Origin: Streptosporangium sandarakinum
GTDB lineage: Bacteria; Actinomycetota; Actinomycetes; Streptosporangiales; Streptosporangiaceae
Length of the DNA stretch: 64,000 bases
Direction: 5' to 3'
Assembly (NCBI RefSeq): GCF_013409935.1
Contig: NZ_JACCCO010000001.1
Coordinates: 3,100,001-3,164,000 of the forward strand
Below are positions 54,210 through 61,859 of the stretch, piece after piece. How positions within the stretch are numbered: position 1 is the first letter of the stretch; every line of letters starts with the position of its first letter. A model generated the notes under the pieces. The model saw only the letters and a program-made list of their open reading frames with translations. It searched no databases and had not been told where the DNA came from. The translations under genes and the position numbers were made by a program.

Positions 54210-55280
54210 TCAGCCGCGGGCTGAGGCGAAGGAGTAGTCGGTGTAGCCGTGCCCGCCGCCGCCGTAGTAGGTCGCGGGATCGGGGCGGTTCAGCGGCGCG
54301 CCGGTGCGCAGCCGTTCCACCAGGTCGGGATTGGCGAGGAAGGCCCGGCCGAAGGCGATGAGGTCGGCCCCGGCGGCGAGCCATCCCTCGGCGGCGGCCC
54401 GGCCGCCGTCGTCGGGGAACTCGCCCCCCGACCGCGGCGCCACCACCAGGGCGCCGGGCCAGGCAGCCCGGATCCGGGCGGCGAGCGGCGTGCCCGCCGC
54501 GACGCCCGCGAGGTGGAAATACGCCAGGCCGAGCGGGGCGAGGGCGGCGGCCAGCGCCGGGTAGACCAGTTCGAGGTCGTCCTCGGCGATGTCGTTGTGC
54601 GGGTCGCCCGGGGTGACGCGCAGCCCCACCCGGTCTCCGCCGACCGCCTCCGCCACGGCCGCGGCGAGTTCGACGGCGAAGCGGAGGCGGTCGCGCCCGT
54701 AGACGTCGCCGCGGTGGTTGGTGCCCGAGGCGAGGAACTGGTGGATCAGGTAGCCGTTGCCGCCGTGCAGCTCGACCCCGTCGAATCCGGCGTCGAGGGC
54801 CAGCCGGGCGGCGCGGGCGAAGTCGCCGATCGTCGCCCGCGTCTCGGCGGTGCTCAGCTCCCGGGGGACGGGCAGGTCCCGGTGCCCGCCGAGGGTGAAG
54901 ATCCGCCCGGCGGCCCGTACCGGCGACGGCGCCACGGGCCGCAGCCCGTTGACGCTCTCGTGGCCGATGCGGCCGGCGTGCATGAGCTGGGCGAAGATCC
55001 GGCCGCCGGCCGCGTGCACCGCGTCGGTCACCGCCCGCCACGCCCTGACCTGCTCGGCGGTGTGCAGGCCCGGGGTCCCCGGGTGACCCTGTCCGGCCTG
55101 GCTCGGCTGGGCGCCCTCGGAGACGATCAGTCCCGCGGTGGCCCGCTGCGCGTAGTACACGGCCGTCTCCGCCGCGGGCACCCCGCGGTGGTCGGCGCGG
55201 CTGCGGGTCATCGGTGACATCACCAGCCGGTTGGGCAGGCGGAGCCGTCCCAGCCGCGCGGGCTCGAACAGGTCTGGCAT
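54210..55280 (-). CDS. Old Yellow Enzyme-family NADH:flavin oxidoreductase
   Basis: A 356-residue FMN-dependent TIM-barrel ene-reductase: 'LPNRLVMSPMTRSRAD', 'GLIVSEGAQPSQAGQGHPGTPGLH', 'FAQLMHAGRIGHESVNG', 'AGFDGVELHGGNGYLIHQFLASGTNHRGDVYGRDRLRFAVELAAAV' (with H-x-x-N and the Y-G-G/R-D-R region) and 'GADLIAFGRAFLANPDLVERLRTG'. It is the YqjM/classical OYE type that reduces activated C=C bonds. ATG 55280 follows GGAAGGG. It lies 80 bp after the TPR gene on the same strand, so it may belong to the peptide operon; it could equally be a separate detoxification enzyme. Confidence 0.88.
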   Translation of the reverse strand: MPDLFEPARLGRLRLPNRLVMSPMTRSRADHRGVPAAETAVYYAQRATAGLIVSEGAQPSQAGQGHPGTPGLHTAEQVRAWRAVTDAVHAAGGRIFAQLMHAGRIGHESVNGLRPVAPSPVRAAGRIFTLGGHRDLPVPRELSTAETRATIGDFARAARLALDAGFDGVELHGGNGYLIHQFLASGTNHRGDVYGRDRLRFAVELAAAVAEAVGGDRVGLRVTPGDPHNDIAEDDLELVYPALAAALAPLGLAYFHLAGVAAGTPLAARIRAAWPGALVVAPRSGGEFPDDGGRAAAEGWLAAGADLIAFGRAFLANPDLVERLRTGAPLNRPDPATYYGGGGHGYTDYSFASARG

Positions 55281-55360: not shown

Positions 55361-57493
55361 TCAGGCCGGCACGTCGGCCGCGGCGGGCTCGCCCAGCGCC
55401 GCCCGGCAGGCGCCCAGCCGTTCCCGGCTGTCCTCGTCGCCGGTCGCGGCCAGCACGATCTCGTAGTCGGCGGCGGCCTCGGCGTAGCGGCCCGACTCCT
55501 GGTGGACGACGGCCCGGTTGAACCGCATCTCGGGCGTGCCGCCCAGCTCGACCGCCCGGTCCAGGTCGTGGGCGGCTCCGGCGAGGTCCCCGGCCGCGTA
55601 GGCGAGTTCGCCGCGCAGCGCCCACGCCTCGGCGAGCCGCTCGTCGCGGCCGATCGCGGCCGACAGCGCCTCGCGGGCCGCGTCGGGGTCGTCCCGCTCG
55701 GCGAGCAGCCGGCCCTTCAGGCACAGCAGGTGGGCGTTGTCCGGCGCGAGCTCCAGCCCCTCGGTGACGTCCCGCCAGGCGGCGTCGGTCTCCCCCAGGT
55801 CGCACAGCAGCCCGGCGCGGTTCACCCGGGCGTCGAGGTGGGCGGGGTCGAGTTCGAGGGTGTAGCCGAAGTCGGCCAGCGCCCCGCGCACGTCGCCGAG
55901 TTCGAGGCGGGCGTCGCCGAGGTTGTAGTACGCCTCGGGGAACGGCGGCGACAGGCGCAGCGCGCGCTCGTAGGCGGCGATGGCCTCCTCGTCGCGGCCG
56001 AGGCGCCGCAGGATGTTGCCGACGTTGAAGTGGTGCTCGGGGAAGTCGGGGTCGAGCTCGACGACCGCGAGGTAGTCGCTCAGCGACTCCTCCAGCCTGC
56101 CCATCATGCCGAGGACCTGCGCGCGGTTGTAGCGCAGCACCGCGCGGTGCAGGGCGTGCTCGCCGGGTTCCAGCTCCCGGTCCAGCCGGGCCATGCCGTC
56201 CTCCAGCATCCGCAGCGCCTCGTCCGCCCGCTTCTGGCGCACCTCGACCAGCGCGAGCCCGTTGTGGCCGAAGACCGAGTGGAAGGCCCGCTTCTTCGGG
56301 TCCTCCACCAGGGAGGCGATCGCGATGGACATGTTCATCCATATCCGCGCCCGCTGGTAGTCGCGCCGCGGCTCGGGGTAGTGCCGGGCGTACAGCATGG
56401 CGGTGCTGTAGGCCAGCTCCATGTGGACGATGGGGTCGGTGCTGACGGCCCGCGCCTCGTCGTAGATGGTCATCGCCTCGTCGGCCCGGCCGAGGGAGGC
56501 GAGCGTGGTGCTGGTGGCGTTGGTGAAGTGCCACCACAGCTCCTCCTGCGTCGACCGGTCCACCAGCGCCCTGCCGCGCAGTCCCAGGTCGGCGGCGGCC
56601 TGGTAGAGGCCGATGCCCCGGCAGTGGTCCATCGCCAGGCGCAGGGCGGCCAGCCCGGCGCCGGACGGGTCGGTGCCGTGCTCGGCGTGGTACGGGATCG
56701 CGCCCAGCGACAGGGAGAACTCGCCCCGGCCGGCCAGCGCCGCCGCCCGCTCGTCGTGCAGCCGCGCACGCTCGGCGGCGGGCAGCGCCTCGTAGGCGGC
56801 GAGCAGCAGCGGGTCGTCGTCGGTGCAGTCGCCCTCGACGTAGGCGCGCGCGGCGGCCGGCGCGTCCACGGCCCCGGCGTCCGGAGCGGCGGAGGTCAGG
56901 GCGGTGGCGGGAGCGTCCACCGGTACGGCGTGGCGCGCGAGGACGCGCGCCAGTGAGATCGTGACCTCGCCCGGCGGGTCGGGGACCGGCTCGGGCCCGG
57001 TGCCGACGACGACGGTCAGCCCGTCCAGGTCGCCGCGGCGCAGCAGCACGGCGACGAGCTCCTGGTCGGTCGGGTCGGCGTGGTGCACGTTCTCGAAGAC
57101 GAGGGTGCGGGGCCCTCCGCCGAGTGCCGCCAGGTGGTCGCGCAGCAGCTCGGCCAGGCCGTTGGAGATGTTCAGGGTGTGCAGCCGGGAGTAGAAGCGG
57201 GTGCGCTCCCCCTTGCCGGCCTGCCACTCCAGCGAGGTCCACGCGGGCGGCACCAGGCGGGCCAGCTCCGGGGTGCTGGTCAGGATCTCGATGTTGTGCG
57301 CGGGCCCCAGCTCGGGCCAGCGCTCCAGCGCCTCCGGCGCGATCGCCCGCATCAGCGTGCCGGCCGCCGTGTACGGCCCGCGCAGCCGCCGGTGGGCGTC
57401 GAGCACCATCAGCACCGGCGGCAGGTCGAGTCCTTCCCGCAGCAGGTCGCGGTCGCGGCGCCGGGCGGCCCGGATCCAGTGGTGGTTACCCAT
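55361..57493 (-). CDS. TPR protein with degenerate STAND/AAA-like N-terminus
   Basis: A 710-residue cytosolic protein. The first ~190 residues resemble the ATPase part of LuxR/MalT-type STAND regulators ('TLVFENVHHADPTDQELVAVLLRRGDLDGLTVVVGTG', a Walker B-like strand with ENVHHADP), but there is no G-x4-G-K-S/T loop, so ATP use is doubtful. Residues from about 260 form at least ten TPR-like repeats ('PEHHFNVGNILRRLGRDEEAIAAYERALRLSPPFPEAYYNLGDARLELGD...'). It starts 12 bp after the metalloprotease stop, GAAAGGG before ATG 57493, so it is in the peptide operon. There is no HTH. It may bind the peptide or a partner protein. Confidence 0.78.
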   Translation of the reverse strand: MGNHHWIRAARRRDRDLLREGLDLPPVLMVLDAHRRLRGPYTAAGTLMRAIAPEALERWPELGPAHNIEILTSTPELARLVPPAWTSLEWQAGKGERTRFYSRLHTLNISNGLAELLRDHLAALGGGPRTLVFENVHHADPTDQELVAVLLRRGDLDGLTVVVGTGPEPVPDPPGEVTISLARVLARHAVPVDAPATALTSAAPDAGAVDAPAAARAYVEGDCTDDDPLLLAAYEALPAAERARLHDERAAALAGRGEFSLSLGAIPYHAEHGTDPSGAGLAALRLAMDHCRGIGLYQAAADLGLRGRALVDRSTQEELWWHFTNATSTTLASLGRADEAMTIYDEARAVSTDPIVHMELAYSTAMLYARHYPEPRRDYQRARIWMNMSIAIASLVEDPKKRAFHSVFGHNGLALVEVRQKRADEALRMLEDGMARLDRELEPGEHALHRAVLRYNRAQVLGMMGRLEESLSDYLAVVELDPDFPEHHFNVGNILRRLGRDEEAIAAYERALRLSPPFPEAYYNLGDARLELGDVRGALADFGYTLELDPAHLDARVNRAGLLCDLGETDAAWRDVTEGLELAPDNAHLLCLKGRLLAERDDPDAAREALSAAIGRDERLAEAWALRGELAYAAGDLAGAAHDLDRAVELGGTPEMRFNRAVVHQESGRYAEAAADYEIVLAATGDEDSRERLGACRAALGEPAAADVPA

Positions 57494-57505: not shown

Positions 57506-58801
57506 TCAGGTGATGACGTGTTCGAGCCGCTGTCTCCGGTCGCGGTATCGCTCCCGGGCCGCCACCCAGGCGAGAACGACGAGCTGCGCGAGGATGAATC
57601 CGCAGAAGACGAGCGAGTCCAGCAGCTCCGGCCAGGACGCGCCGTGGCCGGTGAACCGGCCGAGGATCCCGGTGAACATCTGGTAGACGATCGGGGCGAC
57701 CGCGACGAGGAACGTGGTCAGGCTCACCGTGTAGCCGGCGACGATCAGCCAGGAGTACCACCGGGCGACGCGCCGGTCCGTGGGGTGCCAGTCGGACTCC
57801 TCGACGAGCCGGTCGCGCCGGCCGAGCAGCCGGTTCACCCGGTTGGCCAGCATCTGCCGGGCCGTGGTGTGCAGGTCGACGCAGCCGAGCGCGGTGGAGA
57901 CGAGGACGTAGAGGTCGGTGCGGAGGTACAGGGAGAACTGCCAGAGGATGCGGAGCAGTACGGCGAACGCGAACGCCAGGCAGAACCTCCCGGCGAAGGA
58001 GAGCGCGCCCCCCGGCTGCCTGGTGAGGTCGGCCGCGATCGTCAGGGCCGCCATCACGACCACGTCCGCCAGCATCCCGGCCACGATCGGCAGGTACCGT
58101 TTCCGCCGGGGCACCGCGACCAGCCCGTCCAGCGACGTCTCCAGCACGACGAAGTAGAACCTGCGGGAGATCCGCAGGCTGGAGCGCAGGCCCAGCCGCC
58201 GCCCGGCGAGCGCGTGGAAACTCTCGTGCAGCAGCAGCTGCGGGATGGCCACGACGAACAGCGCCGCCTGGATGACGGTGTAGTAGTCGGTGAAGAAGAC
58301 GTTGCGGTAGCTCGGCACCAGGTCGGGCCGGCGCGCCATCGCGACCAGCGCCCATCCGACGACGGCCGCGTAGCAGGTCCAGGCGGGGACGGAGAAGAGG
58401 GCCGCGCCGAGCCGCCGCCAGCGAACCGGCCGGTCCGCGGTGTACGGCGCGCCGGGATCGTCGACCGCGCCGGGTTCACGGGCCTCGCCGGCCTCGCCGG
58501 TCTCGCCGGCCTCGCGGACGAATCCGAGCTCGCCGAGCGCCGCGACCAGGTCGTCGATGTCGGGGTCCTCGTGGTAGCGCTCGGCGTACCAGGCGGCCGC
58601 CTCGCGCGGCGGAAGTCCCTCCTGGAGCCTGCGCAGCAGTTCGGCGCCGTCCGCCGGGAAGATCGCGTAGGAGTCGGTGTCCGGTCTGCCGACCGTCACC
58701 TCCTCGCCGTCCTCCAGGTAGACCAGGTGGTGCAGCGGGAGCGGCCGGTCGGGGTCGTAACGGGTCGCCGGGCCGCCGGTCACGGCCTCTGCGTCGGTCA
58801 A
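57506..58801 (-). CDS. PqqD-like domain fused to HExxH membrane metalloprotease
   Basis: A 431-residue protein from TTG 58801, preceded by GGGAGGG; the frame extends 32 residues further without a site. Residues 1-95 resemble a PqqD/RRE peptide-binding fold ('YLEDGEEVTVGRPDTDSYAIFPADGAELLRRLQEGLPPREAAAWYAERY...DIDDLVAALGELGFV'). Then come six or more membrane helices with 'AIPQLLLHESFHALAGRRLGLRS' (H-E-x-x-H) and a later 'IVAGMLADVVVMAAL' Asp, the layout of M50/YydH-like intramembrane proteases. It follows the 26-codon peptide gene and is the obvious candidate to cleave or export it. Confidence 0.82.
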   Translation of the reverse strand: MTDAEAVTGGPATRYDPDRPLPLHHLVYLEDGEEVTVGRPDTDSYAIFPADGAELLRRLQEGLPPREAAAWYAERYHEDPDIDDLVAALGELGFVREAGETGEAGEAREPGAVDDPGAPYTADRPVRWRRLGAALFSVPAWTCYAAVVGWALVAMARRPDLVPSYRNVFFTDYYTVIQAALFVVAIPQLLLHESFHALAGRRLGLRSSLRISRRFYFVVLETSLDGLVAVPRRKRYLPIVAGMLADVVVMAALTIAADLTRQPGGALSFAGRFCLAFAFAVLLRILWQFSLYLRTDLYVLVSTALGCVDLHTTARQMLANRVNRLLGRRDRLVEESDWHPTDRRVARWYSWLIVAGYTVSLTTFLVAVAPIVYQMFTGILGRFTGHGASWPELLDSLVFCGFILAQLVVLAWVAARERYRDRRQRLEHVIT

Positions 58802-58988: not shown

Positions 58989-59069
58989 TCAGCTCACGTT
59001 CTTGTAGATCGAGCAGGCGGCGGCGGTCAGGCGGACCGGGCCGGCCTTACGGATCTTGATCTTCTTCAT
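58989..59069 (-). CDS. 26-residue peptide, candidate RiPP or signal precursor
   Basis: A short gene encodes a strongly basic head, MKKIKIRKAGPVRL, then TAAACSIYKNVS. ATG 59069 lies five bases after AGGAGGTG, the best ribosome site in the window, and the codons use G/C third positions. The tail has one Cys, two Ser, one Thr and one Tyr. It is followed by a hairpin and the PqqD-like/HExxH protease gene. These facts make it a likely precursor of a processed peptide. I do not recognise the family, and no lanthionine, radical-SAM, YcaO or P450 gene is in the window. Confidence 0.75.
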   Translation of the reverse strand: MKKIKIRKAGPVRLTAAACSIYKNVS

Positions 59070-59177
59070 CGTGCACCTCCTCCCGAGGTCCGAAGGTCGA
59101 TGTCAACGATGGCCGCCGCCGCTGGAGCGGCGTCGCCGCGGCACTGAACCCGGCGCGGGCACGGGCGGGCGGCGCGG

Positions 59178-59210
59178 CCAGTGAACCGCCAGTGAACCGC
59201 CAGTGGACCC
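59178..59210. promoter_or_regulatory. three contiguous 11-bp direct repeats, SARP/PHO-box type
   Basis: CCAGTGAACCG (59178-59188), CCAGTGAACCG (59189-59199) and CCAGTGGACCC (59200-59210). On the minus strand, toward the peptide gene, each reads GGTTCACTGG, one helical turn apart. SARP activators and PhoP bind direct repeats with exactly this 11-bp period, and GTTCAC is typical of PHO and AfsR boxes. The repeats lie 109 bp upstream of the peptide start and 298 bp from the SARP gene start. A more degenerate GGGTTCAGTGC is at 59141-59151, out of phase. Confidence 0.65.
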
Positions 59211-59507: not shown

Positions 59508-61859
59508 ATGGCGGATATACGGTTCAGCCTGCTCGGTTCACTACGGGTATGGCGAGGAAATACCGAGGTCGCGATCAGCTCGGACAAACAACGGACCGTT
59601 CTCGCTCTGCTGCTGCTGAAGGCGGGGACGCCCGTCCACCGCCAGGAGATCATCGACGCCGTGTGGAGCGACGGCGCCCCGGACTCCGTGGTCAACCTCG
59701 TCCAGACCTACGTGGGGCGGCTGCGCCGCCGCGTCGATCCGTCCCACGTGGCCCGGTCCGGCGTCTCCTGGCTCGCCGGGCTGGGACCCGCGTACGCGAT
59801 CCGGCTCGACCGGTGCGACACCGACCTGGTCCGCTTCCGGACGGCGGTGGCGCGGGCCGGGCGGGCCGGCTCCCCCAGGGAGACCCTGGAGCTGCTGCTG
59901 CGGGCACTGCAGCTCTGGCAGGGCCCCTGTCTGTCCGATCTCGGCCACGCGGTCCGGGGGCACCCCTGGGTCCGCGCGGCCGACCAGGAACGCGTGGACG
60001 GCCTGCTCGAGGCCGCCAAGCTCGCCCTCCAGCTCGGCCTGACCTGCGAGGTCATCCCGCAGTTGCGGGCCGTCGCCGCGGCCGAGCCGCTGAACGAGGC
60101 GGTGCACTCCTGGCTCGTGCTCGCCCTCGCGGGCGCCGGGGCGCAGGCCGAGGCGCTGTCCGAGTACGAGGCGACCCGCAGGAGGCTGGCGGACGAGCTC
60201 GGCATCGACCCCGGCCCGCAGCTACGCGCGGCGCACCTGCAGGTGCTGCGGCAGGAGACGGGCCCGTCCTCCTCCTACGAGCCCTACGAGTCCTACGACT
60301 CCTGCGAGTCATGCGAGTCCGCGCCCTCCGGTGGAACGTTCCGCCCGTCCCTCCTGCCTCCCGACGTCGCCGACTTCACCGGGCGGGAGAAGACGGTCGG
60401 CCGGCTCCGCGGCGCGCTGACCGCCCGCGGCACCGGGTCCGTCGCCGTGGGGCTCGTCACCGGGCAGGGCGGCGTCGGCAAGACCGCCACGGCCCTGCAC
60501 GTGGCCCACCGGCTGGGCGAGGCGTTCCCGGACGGCCAGCTCTACGCCGACATGCACGGCTCCAGCGCGTGCCCCGCGGACCCGTCGCGGGTGCTGGCCC
60601 GGTTCCTGCGCGCCCTCGGCGTCCACGCCTCCGCCGTCCCCCAGGACCTGGAGGAACGGATCGACCTGTACCGCAGCCGGCTCGCCGGCCGCCGGATGCT
60701 CGTGGTGCTCGACGACGTCGCCGACCACGCGCAGGCCAGGCCGCTGTTACCCGGCTCGCCCACCTGCTCGGTCATCGTGACCAGCCGCTCCCGGCTGCCG
60801 GGCTGGCCGGGCGCCGCCCGCGTCGAGCTGGAGCCGCTGGAGCCGGGGGAGGCCGCGGACATGCTGGCGAACGTCCTCGGCCGCGAGCGCGTCGCCGCGG
60901 AGCCCGGGGCCGCCGCCGAGGTCACCCGGCTGTGCGGGTGTCTGCCGCTGGCGCTGCGCGCCGCCGGGACGCGGCTCGCCGGCCGTACGCACTGGACGCT
61001 CGCGCGGTTCGCCGAGCGGCTGGACCGCGACGGCCTCGACGAGCTCGCCCTCGGTGACCCGGACGTCAGGGGAGGCATCGCCGCCGACTACCACCGGCTG
61101 GACGAGGCGGCGCGGCGGGCCGTCCGCCTCCTCGGCGTCCTGGACCTCCCCTCCTTCGCCACGTGGACCATCGCGATGGTGCTGGAAACATCCCAGGAGG
61201 CGGCGGAGGAGCTCGCCGACTCCCTCGCCGACGCGCGCATGCTGGAGATCACCGAGCCGGACGCCGCCGGCCAGACCCGCTACCGGTTCCACGAGCTCGT
61301 CCGCCGCTACGCCCGCGAGCAGGCCGCGCAGGAGGAGAGCGGCACCGTCGTCGACGTGGTGATCACCCGCACCCTCGCGGCCTTCCTCACCCTGGCGCAG
61401 GAGGCCGACGAGCGCCTGCCGTCGGCCCGGTACACCCCGGTGCGGGGCAGGGCGCCGCGCTGGCCGCCTCCGGCGCGGGTCCGCGAGACGCTGCTCGCCG
61501 ACCCCATCGCCTGGTTCGAGAGCGAGCGGGCCTCCCTGGTCGCCGCCGTGCTGCAGGCGTCGGCCCTCGGCCTGGACGAGCTGTGCTGGGAGCTGACCGC
61601 CGCGATGCTGAACGACGCGGCGCTGCGGTCCTCCTGGACCGGTGTGGAGCGAGCCCTCCGGGCCGCCCTGGCGGCCTGCCGCCGGTCCGGGGACCGGCTC
61701 GGCGAGACCGTGGCGCTGCGCGGGCTGGCCGAAGCGCGACTGGGACGCGAGCACCGCCTGGAAGGGGATGAGGCCCTGGTACCGGCCCGTGGCGGGACGG
61801 TTCGCTCGCCGGAGCCTGCGGAGAATGACCCGCCGATGGCACGATCTACCTATGCCTGA
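59508..61859 (+). CDS. SARP-family activator with NB-ARC domain (AfsR-like, no TPR)
   Basis: A 783-residue regulator: N-terminal OmpR-type winged helix ('RFSLLGSLRVWRGNTEVAISSDKQRTVLALLLLKAGTPVHRQEIIDAVW'), BTAD helical domain ('DTDLVRFRTAVARAGRAG...LSEYEATRRRLADELGIDPGPQLRAAHLQVL'), a Tyr/Ser/Cys-rich linker, then NB-ARC with Walker A 'VTGQGGVGKTATALHVAHRL', Walker B 'MLVVLDDVADHAQ', 'VIVTSRSRLPG' and 'GCLPLALRAAG'. The TPR array of AfsR is missing: only a short helical tail follows. ATG 59508 has AGGAG. It is divergent from the peptide operon and probably acts on the 11-bp repeats. Confidence 0.88.
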   Translation: MADIRFSLLGSLRVWRGNTEVAISSDKQRTVLALLLLKAGTPVHRQEIIDAVWSDGAPDSVVNLVQTYVGRLRRRVDPSHVARSGVSWLAGLGPAYAIRLDRCDTDLVRFRTAVARAGRAGSPRETLELLLRALQLWQGPCLSDLGHAVRGHPWVRAADQERVDGLLEAAKLALQLGLTCEVIPQLRAVAAAEPLNEAVHSWLVLALAGAGAQAEALSEYEATRRRLADELGIDPGPQLRAAHLQVLRQETGPSSSYEPYESYDSCESCESAPSGGTFRPSLLPPDVADFTGREKTVGRLRGALTARGTGSVAVGLVTGQGGVGKTATALHVAHRLGEAFPDGQLYADMHGSSACPADPSRVLARFLRALGVHASAVPQDLEERIDLYRSRLAGRRMLVVLDDVADHAQARPLLPGSPTCSVIVTSRSRLPGWPGAARVELEPLEPGEAADMLANVLGRERVAAEPGAAAEVTRLCGCLPLALRAAGTRLAGRTHWTLARFAERLDRDGLDELALGDPDVRGGIAADYHRLDEAARRAVRLLGVLDLPSFATWTIAMVLETSQEAAEELADSLADARMLEITEPDAAGQTRYRFHELVRRYAREQAAQEESGTVVDVVITRTLAAFLTLAQEADERLPSARYTPVRGRAPRWPPPARVRETLLADPIAWFESERASLVAAVLQASALGLDELCWELTAAMLNDAALRSSWTGVERALRAALAACRRSGDRLGETVALRGLAEARLGREHRLEGDEALVPARGGTVRSPEPAENDPPMARSTYA

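Follow-up and report, generated by a model that had tools for sequence, protein, structure and literature searches.

The stretch of DNA analysed here, hereafter the window, comprises 64,000 nucleotides of the soil actinobacterium Streptosporangium sandarakinum (contig NZ_JACCCO010000001.1, positions 3,100,001 to 3,164,000), and its minus strand carries a compact operon headed by a 26-codon gene for a precursor peptide (58989-59069), which reads MKKIKIRKAGPVRLTAAACSIYKNVS followed by a stop codon. After 187 bp comes the gene for a 431-residue protein (57506..58801), a predicted fusion of a RiPP recognition element (RRE; RiPP, ribosomally synthesized and post-translationally modified peptide) with a site-2-type, M50-like membrane metalloprotease (S2P); the gene for a 710-residue tetratricopeptide repeat (TPR) protein (55361..57493) follows 12 bp further on and, 80 bp beyond it, that for an Old Yellow Enzyme (OYE) family oxidoreductase (54210..55280; PF00724, E 2.1e-65), all on the same strand. 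An initial annotation, made from the letters of the window alone, had placed an uncatalogued peptide gene at the head of this operon; its coordinates and the gene order agree with our analysis. The Shine-Dalgarno sequence (GGAGGAGG, 59075..59084, minus strand), identified from the sequence and by an upstream scan of open reading frames (ORFs), is strong, as had been claimed, and GGGAGGAGG stands directly 5' of the ATG of the peptide gene. Genes were called with a simple in-house caller, and the TTG start of the protease is the caller's choice. The RNA between the peptide and protease genes is unremarkable (z -1.74, 13/200 shuffles).

The window protease and its counterpart in S. pseudovulgare share 97% identity, and protease relatives were found in at least 96 of the 297 genomes of the family. 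All 25 near-full-length relatives with at least 45% identity have the peptide on their 5' side, starting 161-377 bp upstream (G251, a 105-residue fragment with a stop and 49% identity, was excluded from this set). For 24/24 fetched orthologues the peptide emerged when the upstream DNA was scanned for short ORFs preceded by a Shine-Dalgarno sequence, the leader motif playing no part; at the 25th locus it was retrieved by a scan with that motif. Conversely, when a profile built from 36 peptides was run against the 297 genomes, it yielded 26 strong matches (E <= 1.7e-11), all of which start 161-377 bp from those 25 proteases. At eight more distant protease loci (about 33% identity), the motif-free scan showed no peptide within 900 bp. 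Five candidates per genome were scored in the protease search, 27 in the peptide profile search and seven in the class-wide TPR search described below, so that the corresponding counts are lower bounds. The peptide has no match in NCBIfam or Pfam, nor have four of its relatives in NCBIfam and one in Pfam. On the strength of this sequence conservation, the 26-codon ORF is confirmed as a genuine, conserved and uncatalogued gene, and a homologous short gene does stand beside the related proteases of other genomes.

The composition of the operon was compared in 87 loci, namely the best 80 of 101 named relatives plus the window, L034, L040, L043, L046, L052 and L064, these seven additional loci being judged non-duplicate; all were found through the protease, whose presence is therefore by construction. 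The 80 named loci are all actinobacterial and belong to about 28 named genera, including Streptosporangium, Planobispora, Amycolatopsis, Actinokineospora, Kitasatospora, Streptomyces, Micromonospora, Actinoplanes, Nonomuraea and Nocardia. Peptide, protease and TPR protein occur together in 85/87 loci, the peptide being recognised by its motif in 83 and from the reading frames in L077 and L086; L132 ends at a contig edge, and the scan found no intact peptide in L122. The latter locus, upstream of 1239, has the protease, the TPR protein and a flavin reductase, with a peptide-like end in another frame. Some loci harbor multiple precursors (two in L078, L080 and L098, three in L083, six each in L124 and L133). 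In L124 and L133 the tandem copies, 5' of the protease, combine a near-identical leader with varied Cys/Tyr cores, an arrangement typical of precursor families.

The alignment of 86 distinct peptides divides the precursor into a constrained leader with the pattern KKIx[VI]RKxGxVRLT (MKKIKIRKAGPVRLT, 59025..59069) and a variable core (AAACSIYKNVS and the stop codon, 58989..59024), both on the minus strand. Three leader positions (Arg, Leu and Thr) are invariant and further ones almost so, an invariance that is partly by construction, the peptides having been found by the leader motif. In all pairs of 98 ORFs, with kinship uncorrected, the ratio of synonymous to non-synonymous codon differences was 0.85 in the leader vs. 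a crude single-change expectation of 0.38, and 0.29 vs. 0.33 in the core, whose rate of change is thus close to expectation. Nevertheless, Cys and Tyr, neither of which is part of the search motif, are both present in 83/83 distinct cores, where composition would predict 3.0. Position 1 after VRLT holds a small residue, position 3 Ala in 77/86 peptides and Thr in 6/86, and the first Tyr stands at position 7 in 68/86. From these sequences, a cut after small-x-Ala (AAA in the window) appears likely, and the product would plausibly be CSIYKNVS. The gene thus encodes a ribosomal precursor with a conserved leader and a variable core, as is required of a RiPP. A chance ORF, or a regulatory leader ORF with no peptide product, is suggested by the shortness of the ORF alone; its protein sequence is conserved across many genera, Cys and Tyr are obligate in the variable part and tandem copies occur, all of which renders that explanation practically negligible.

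As regards the second gene, the claim that it encodes a PqqD-like domain and an HExxH membrane protease found support in the structure model and hardly any in Pfam. The window protein has no Pfam match to M50 or PqqD; among its relatives, M50 was matched in 1/18 (E 4.2e-4) and PqqD in L124 (E 0.015). The predicted structure matches RRE and S2P folds (VIA), the latter with moderate Z (6.5-7.9), and the whole protease gave no Foldseek match at E <= 0.001. The RRE (PqqD-like) domain corresponds to residues 19-97 (58511..58747, minus strand), and its closest solved relatives are the lasso peptide B1 proteins TbiB1 and TfuB1. Lasso B1 proteins bind their leader as an extended strand. No lasso B2 protease or C cyclase occurs among the recurrent genes of the 87 loci, which were not searched for them by family model. 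H192, E193, H196 and D296 are invariant in 57 protease sequences; the HExxH (residues 192-196, 58214..58228, minus strand) is presumed to be the zinc site and the distal Asp296 its third ligand, a metal role assigned by analogy with the family. Accordingly, the protein has what characterizes an M50/site-2 protease, that is, HExxH in a membrane helix, a distal Asp and the S2P fold, and the predicted fold and the gene context suggest that an RRE domain and a leader protease accompany the peptide, as in RiPP clusters.

The TPR protein is the other constant partner, being encoded on the same strand in 87/87 loci. Its structure model (predicted local distance difference test score 94.2) consists of an alpha/beta N-domain (about residues 1-235), resembling a degenerate P-loop domain, and a long TPR superhelix (239-700). 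All 50 TPR proteins compared have Asn 411, 456, 524 and 659, 98% have Asn 387 and 84% Asn 558; Asn 456, 524, 558 and 659 occupy one register of the repeat. Asn ladders of this kind are found in peptide-binding TPR proteins. The N-domain matches AAA_16 (E 0.0024) and, weakly, large ORFs, and has a near-invariant RxRGPYT in place of the P-loop, so that it seems to resemble a degraded STAND NTPase. In 26 sequences, three of them from the sister family described below, GPY and RR (152-153) do not vary and RxRGPYT hardly does; the ERTR motif of the protease-associated TPR proteins is not retained in the sister ones. The N-domain has no PDB sequence match at E <= 1, and the listed fold matches hardly extend over it, which does not imply that the domain is new. 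The text of a paper on STAND conflict systems (PMC7159879) contains none of the terms PqqD, M50, FxsA, RiPP, signaling peptide and HExxH.

The presence of the TPR gene in the operon had been recognised from the start, but the protein turned out to be more central than supposed, since it also accompanies a sister family of peptides without the protease. The peptide profile gave 81 weaker matches among those listed, of which 20, mostly the best, were fetched; some of the others, lying in long frames, look like chance. A TPR homologue is present in 19/20 of the fetched stretches, directly downstream of the peptide in 18 (in L166 it lies 2.6 kb away on the other strand, and in L171 there is none), and the protease is absent from all 20. 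The sister peptides (loci L155-L174 and L182-L204) read MKKIIVRKPGTVRLTGTASVIHKG or similar, with a His near the end and no Tyr; among those read, Cys occurs only in L166 and L191. Their cores end in HKG, HVG, HAA or similar, and their neighbour genes are of several different kinds. In seven genomes of one genus, the sister peptide match adjoins a TPR match in each, in a search that scored most of its candidates, and a further profile search with all candidates scored found no protease relative in these seven, two control genomes being positive. In the class-wide search, the TPR N-domain was detected in at least 19 of 394 genomes; 30 of the loci were fetched, of which eight are of the protease type, 17 have a sister peptide just upstream and five show no peptide. 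In the genome of the window itself, L171 (G000:C2:317225-317281, minus strand) is an orphan sister peptide, MKKIIVHKPGTVRLSGTASAIHEG; the 16 kb read there contain no TPR homologue. L197 (G000:C3:904680-905126, minus strand) is a further TPR homologue, and no leader peptide could be recognised in the 500 bp upstream of it.

The existence of these pairs indicates that leader and TPR protein are the common denominator, the protease going with the Cys/Tyr family; judged from sequence, peptide plus TPR protein looks like the minimal unit. We tentatively entertain, at somewhat less than an even chance, that the pseudo-STAND TPR protein is a universal leader-binding partner, and possibly a maturase of a new kind, of two peptide families, the Cys/Tyr one with its RRE protease and the bare His-core pair, which together would form a new class of ribosomal peptides. 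A more specific proposal is that the TPR protein is an unrecognised maturase, whose N-domain (RGPYT) would modify the core, at Cys/Tyr in the main family and perhaps at His in the sister peptides, with the repeats holding the leader. The fact that this protein alone accompanies both families speaks for it, as does a conservation of GPY, RR and RxRGPYT beyond the seeming need of a dead pseudo-NTPase. On the other hand, the N-domain resembles a degraded STAND/AAA NTPase and lacks the P-loop lysine, it has neither the PDB match mentioned above nor a known catalytic set, and ERTR is not kept in the sister proteins; in the light of these data we regard such a maturase as distinctly unlikely.

A TPR protein beside a short peptide and a membrane protease also recalls signalling systems. 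In RRNPP signalling with Eep, an M50 protease, a short peptide and a TPR protein act together. The present operons share these three components; they differ in the RRE-type leader, in the obligate Cys and Tyr and in the absence of any helix-turn-helix (HTH) domain found on the TPR protein. The corresponding alternative is an unmodified pheromone, in which an Eep-like protease would free a linear Cys/Tyr peptide; after re-import, the TPR protein and/or the NB-ARC regulator would read it. Regulator clusters within 3 kb in 45/87 loci help this explanation slightly, and the TPR fold expected of an RRNPP receptor is present, but it is a generic one, and the TPR matches do not stand out from those to many unrelated TPR proteins. 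Moreover, the TPR proteins tested matched TPR models and a few others weakly, such as AAA_16, and no DNA-binding model; the RRE-type leader is unlike Sec-exported pheromone precursors, and a linear signal has no obvious need of an obligate Cys and Tyr. All considered, we hold a pheromone to be unlikely, though worth keeping in mind.

According to the initial annotation, no standard maturase is encoded in the window operon, which holds true, and no known maturase recurs in the 87 loci. The OYE, which had been put forward as a possible modifying enzyme, did not fare as well, since it is a clade-specific accessory present in 10/87 loci, all of the window's clade. Neighbour families were defined as single-linkage BLAST clusters, mostly unannotated; on the operon strand, the only downstream clusters that recur are those of the TPR protein and the flavoenzymes. 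A flavin reductase occurs in 31 other loci (on the same strand in 28), and 46 loci have neither enzyme. Both the OYE as core enzyme (10/87) and the flavin reductase as universal core enzyme (31/87) were ruled out on these counts. Flavoenzymes accompany 31 of the 46 loci whose core has a Cys before the Tyr vs. nine of the 39 with Cys only after it (Fisher p 7e-5, kinship uncorrected), and the two flavin reductases tested resemble the reductase partners of phenol hydroxylases, both of which would fit a RiPP made by flavin chemistry, with an OYE or a flavin reductase acting on the Tyr/Cys core. Against this, both clusters are missing from 45 of the 85 core-bearing loci, no hydroxylase cluster recurs in the 87 loci, and the core AAACSIYKNAN occurs both with an OYE (L067) and without one (L070); such a route appears to us very doubtful.

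Upstream of the operon, a divergent AfsR/SARP-like regulator with BTAD and NB-ARC domains lies on the plus strand (59508..61859; AfsR model E 7.4e-137, under the cut-off of that model; BTAD E 4.6e-29). Its assignment to HaaT was rejected, the match being far below the cut-off of the HaaT model. At 59177-59209, an 11-bp unit (GGTTCACTGGC-like when read along the operon strand) occurs in three direct copies, with a score reached by 0/100 shuffles, and represents a candidate regulator site. Neither the regulator nor these repeats had been mentioned in the initial annotation. Repeats were scanned for in 23 loci: L065 has the same ones as the window, and weaker 11-bp CTGG-type repeats occur near -133 to -138 in L072 and L073 (0/100 shuffles) and L069 (1). 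The scores of those in L034, L074 and L046 were also reached by 6, 6 and 19 of 100 shuffles, respectively, and most of the rest of the 23 loci show no such pattern. The cluster of the window regulator is present in 22/87 loci; in 45/87, a gene from one of five recurrent clusters, regulator-like or of unknown kind, lies within 3 kb, and in 29 there is one of AfsR/SARP type. One member each of four clusters was tested, yielding a BTAD domain, a response regulator with a LuxR HTH, a weak HTH_31 match and no Pfam match. Two clusters, D9 and D8, are found in nine loci each (L082, L089, L092, L093, L100, L101, L103, L105 and L141), as a small gene with a weak HTH_31 match and a gene of 136-211 residues with no Pfam match, on the opposite strand near the operon; this annotation comes from one member each.

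Overall, we propose with moderate confidence that the 26-residue peptide serves as precursor to a small, RiPP-like product, matured as follows. In the clade of the window, the divergent SARP/AfsR-type activator would switch on the operon, as the 11-bp repeats suggest. The leader strand KKIxVRKxGxVRLT would then be captured by the N-terminal RRE of the protease, consistent with the structure match, and the site-2-type protease would cut at or near small-x-Ala, freeing a short core such as CSIYKNVS and perhaps releasing it across the membrane. The TPR protein, paired with the peptide by gene context, may bind the precursor or its leader in the groove of invariant Asn residues, as a holder, scaffold or receptor. 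Finally, the conserved core Cys and Tyr would be functional or modified residues, with the flavoenzymes as optional tailoring or redox partners.

Several observations weigh against this proposal. No known maturase recurs, so that the label RiPP may not apply, and no transporter cluster recurs in the 87 loci, leaving export unexplained. The distribution of the regulators (45/87, AfsR/SARP-type in 29) means that the activator step is not general, and many relatives have the 11-bp repeats in weak form or not at all. A similar leader is conserved without the RRE protease, and TPR binding alone might explain it. Lastly, the S2P fold matches are of moderate Z (6.5-7.9), and the TPR fold matches are to TPR proteins in general.

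Among known systems, the closest in layout are the daptides (MpaA/MpaP), in which, according to PMC10036551, RRE-S2P fusions remove the leaders. The operons share with them a short precursor beside an RRE-S2P fusion, with the RRE at its N-terminus, and the possibility of several precursors per cluster. They differ in that ELExMEAP occurs in 0/86 peptides, the C-termini vary with no invariant C-terminal Thr, and there is a constant TPR partner. No cluster of the MpaB/C/D/M type recurs in the 87 loci, where single neighbours were not annotated. YydH is an epipeptide protease. According to PMC10885120, the M50 protease EpeP is proposed to release its peptide across the membrane, and epipeptides (EpeX/EpeP) and 3-thia-amino acid pearlins (TglG) likewise have an M50 membrane protease that matures a ribosomal peptide; the Cys/Tyr core distinguishes the present peptides from these. 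No radical SAM enzyme or PEARL is among the recurrent genes of the 87 loci, which were not searched by family model. AmmC2 (ammosamide) and PbsE (biphenomycin-type) are further TPR proteins from RiPP clusters, where their role is unclear (PMC12424672, PMC12257519); those clusters carry PEARLs or MNIO/radical SAM enzymes, and PbsE is described as arginase-like, the comparison being by description. TMcin (PMC13252029) is a different S2P-matured peptide.

The literature, partially covered, contained nothing recognisable as a peptide-RRE/S2P-TPR set, and leader strings returned no paper within the same coverage. Because the operons share no recurrent modifying enzyme of any known type, the family may represent a new class of ribosomally made small peptides, that is, a candidate RiPP-like class; for the same reason, mining by known maturases would miss it, with its at least 86 distinct precursors across the Actinomycetota. 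Two direct handles on new chemistry or a peptide signal in antibiotic-producing bacteria are at hand in the Cys and Tyr of every core and in the ever-present TPR protein, and a leader recognition common to RRE and TPR protein is suggested.

A paralogous system was also observed, twice in one genome (L056, G000:C1:2796001-2816000, and L057, G000:C2:1-12000) and in L059-L063. It consists of a tiny peptide, MEIKVKKVESVKATQNPAT or MKIEVRKVEAVKATQFMT, followed by a ThiF/E1-like protein and an RRE-S2P-like protease. The E1-like protein of L057 matches PF00899 (E 2e-48), and its N-terminal part looks PqqD-like by eye. The E1 protein and the peptide are both present in 7/8 loci read, with a leader resembling that of the main family, and the system is a candidate E1-type RiPP.
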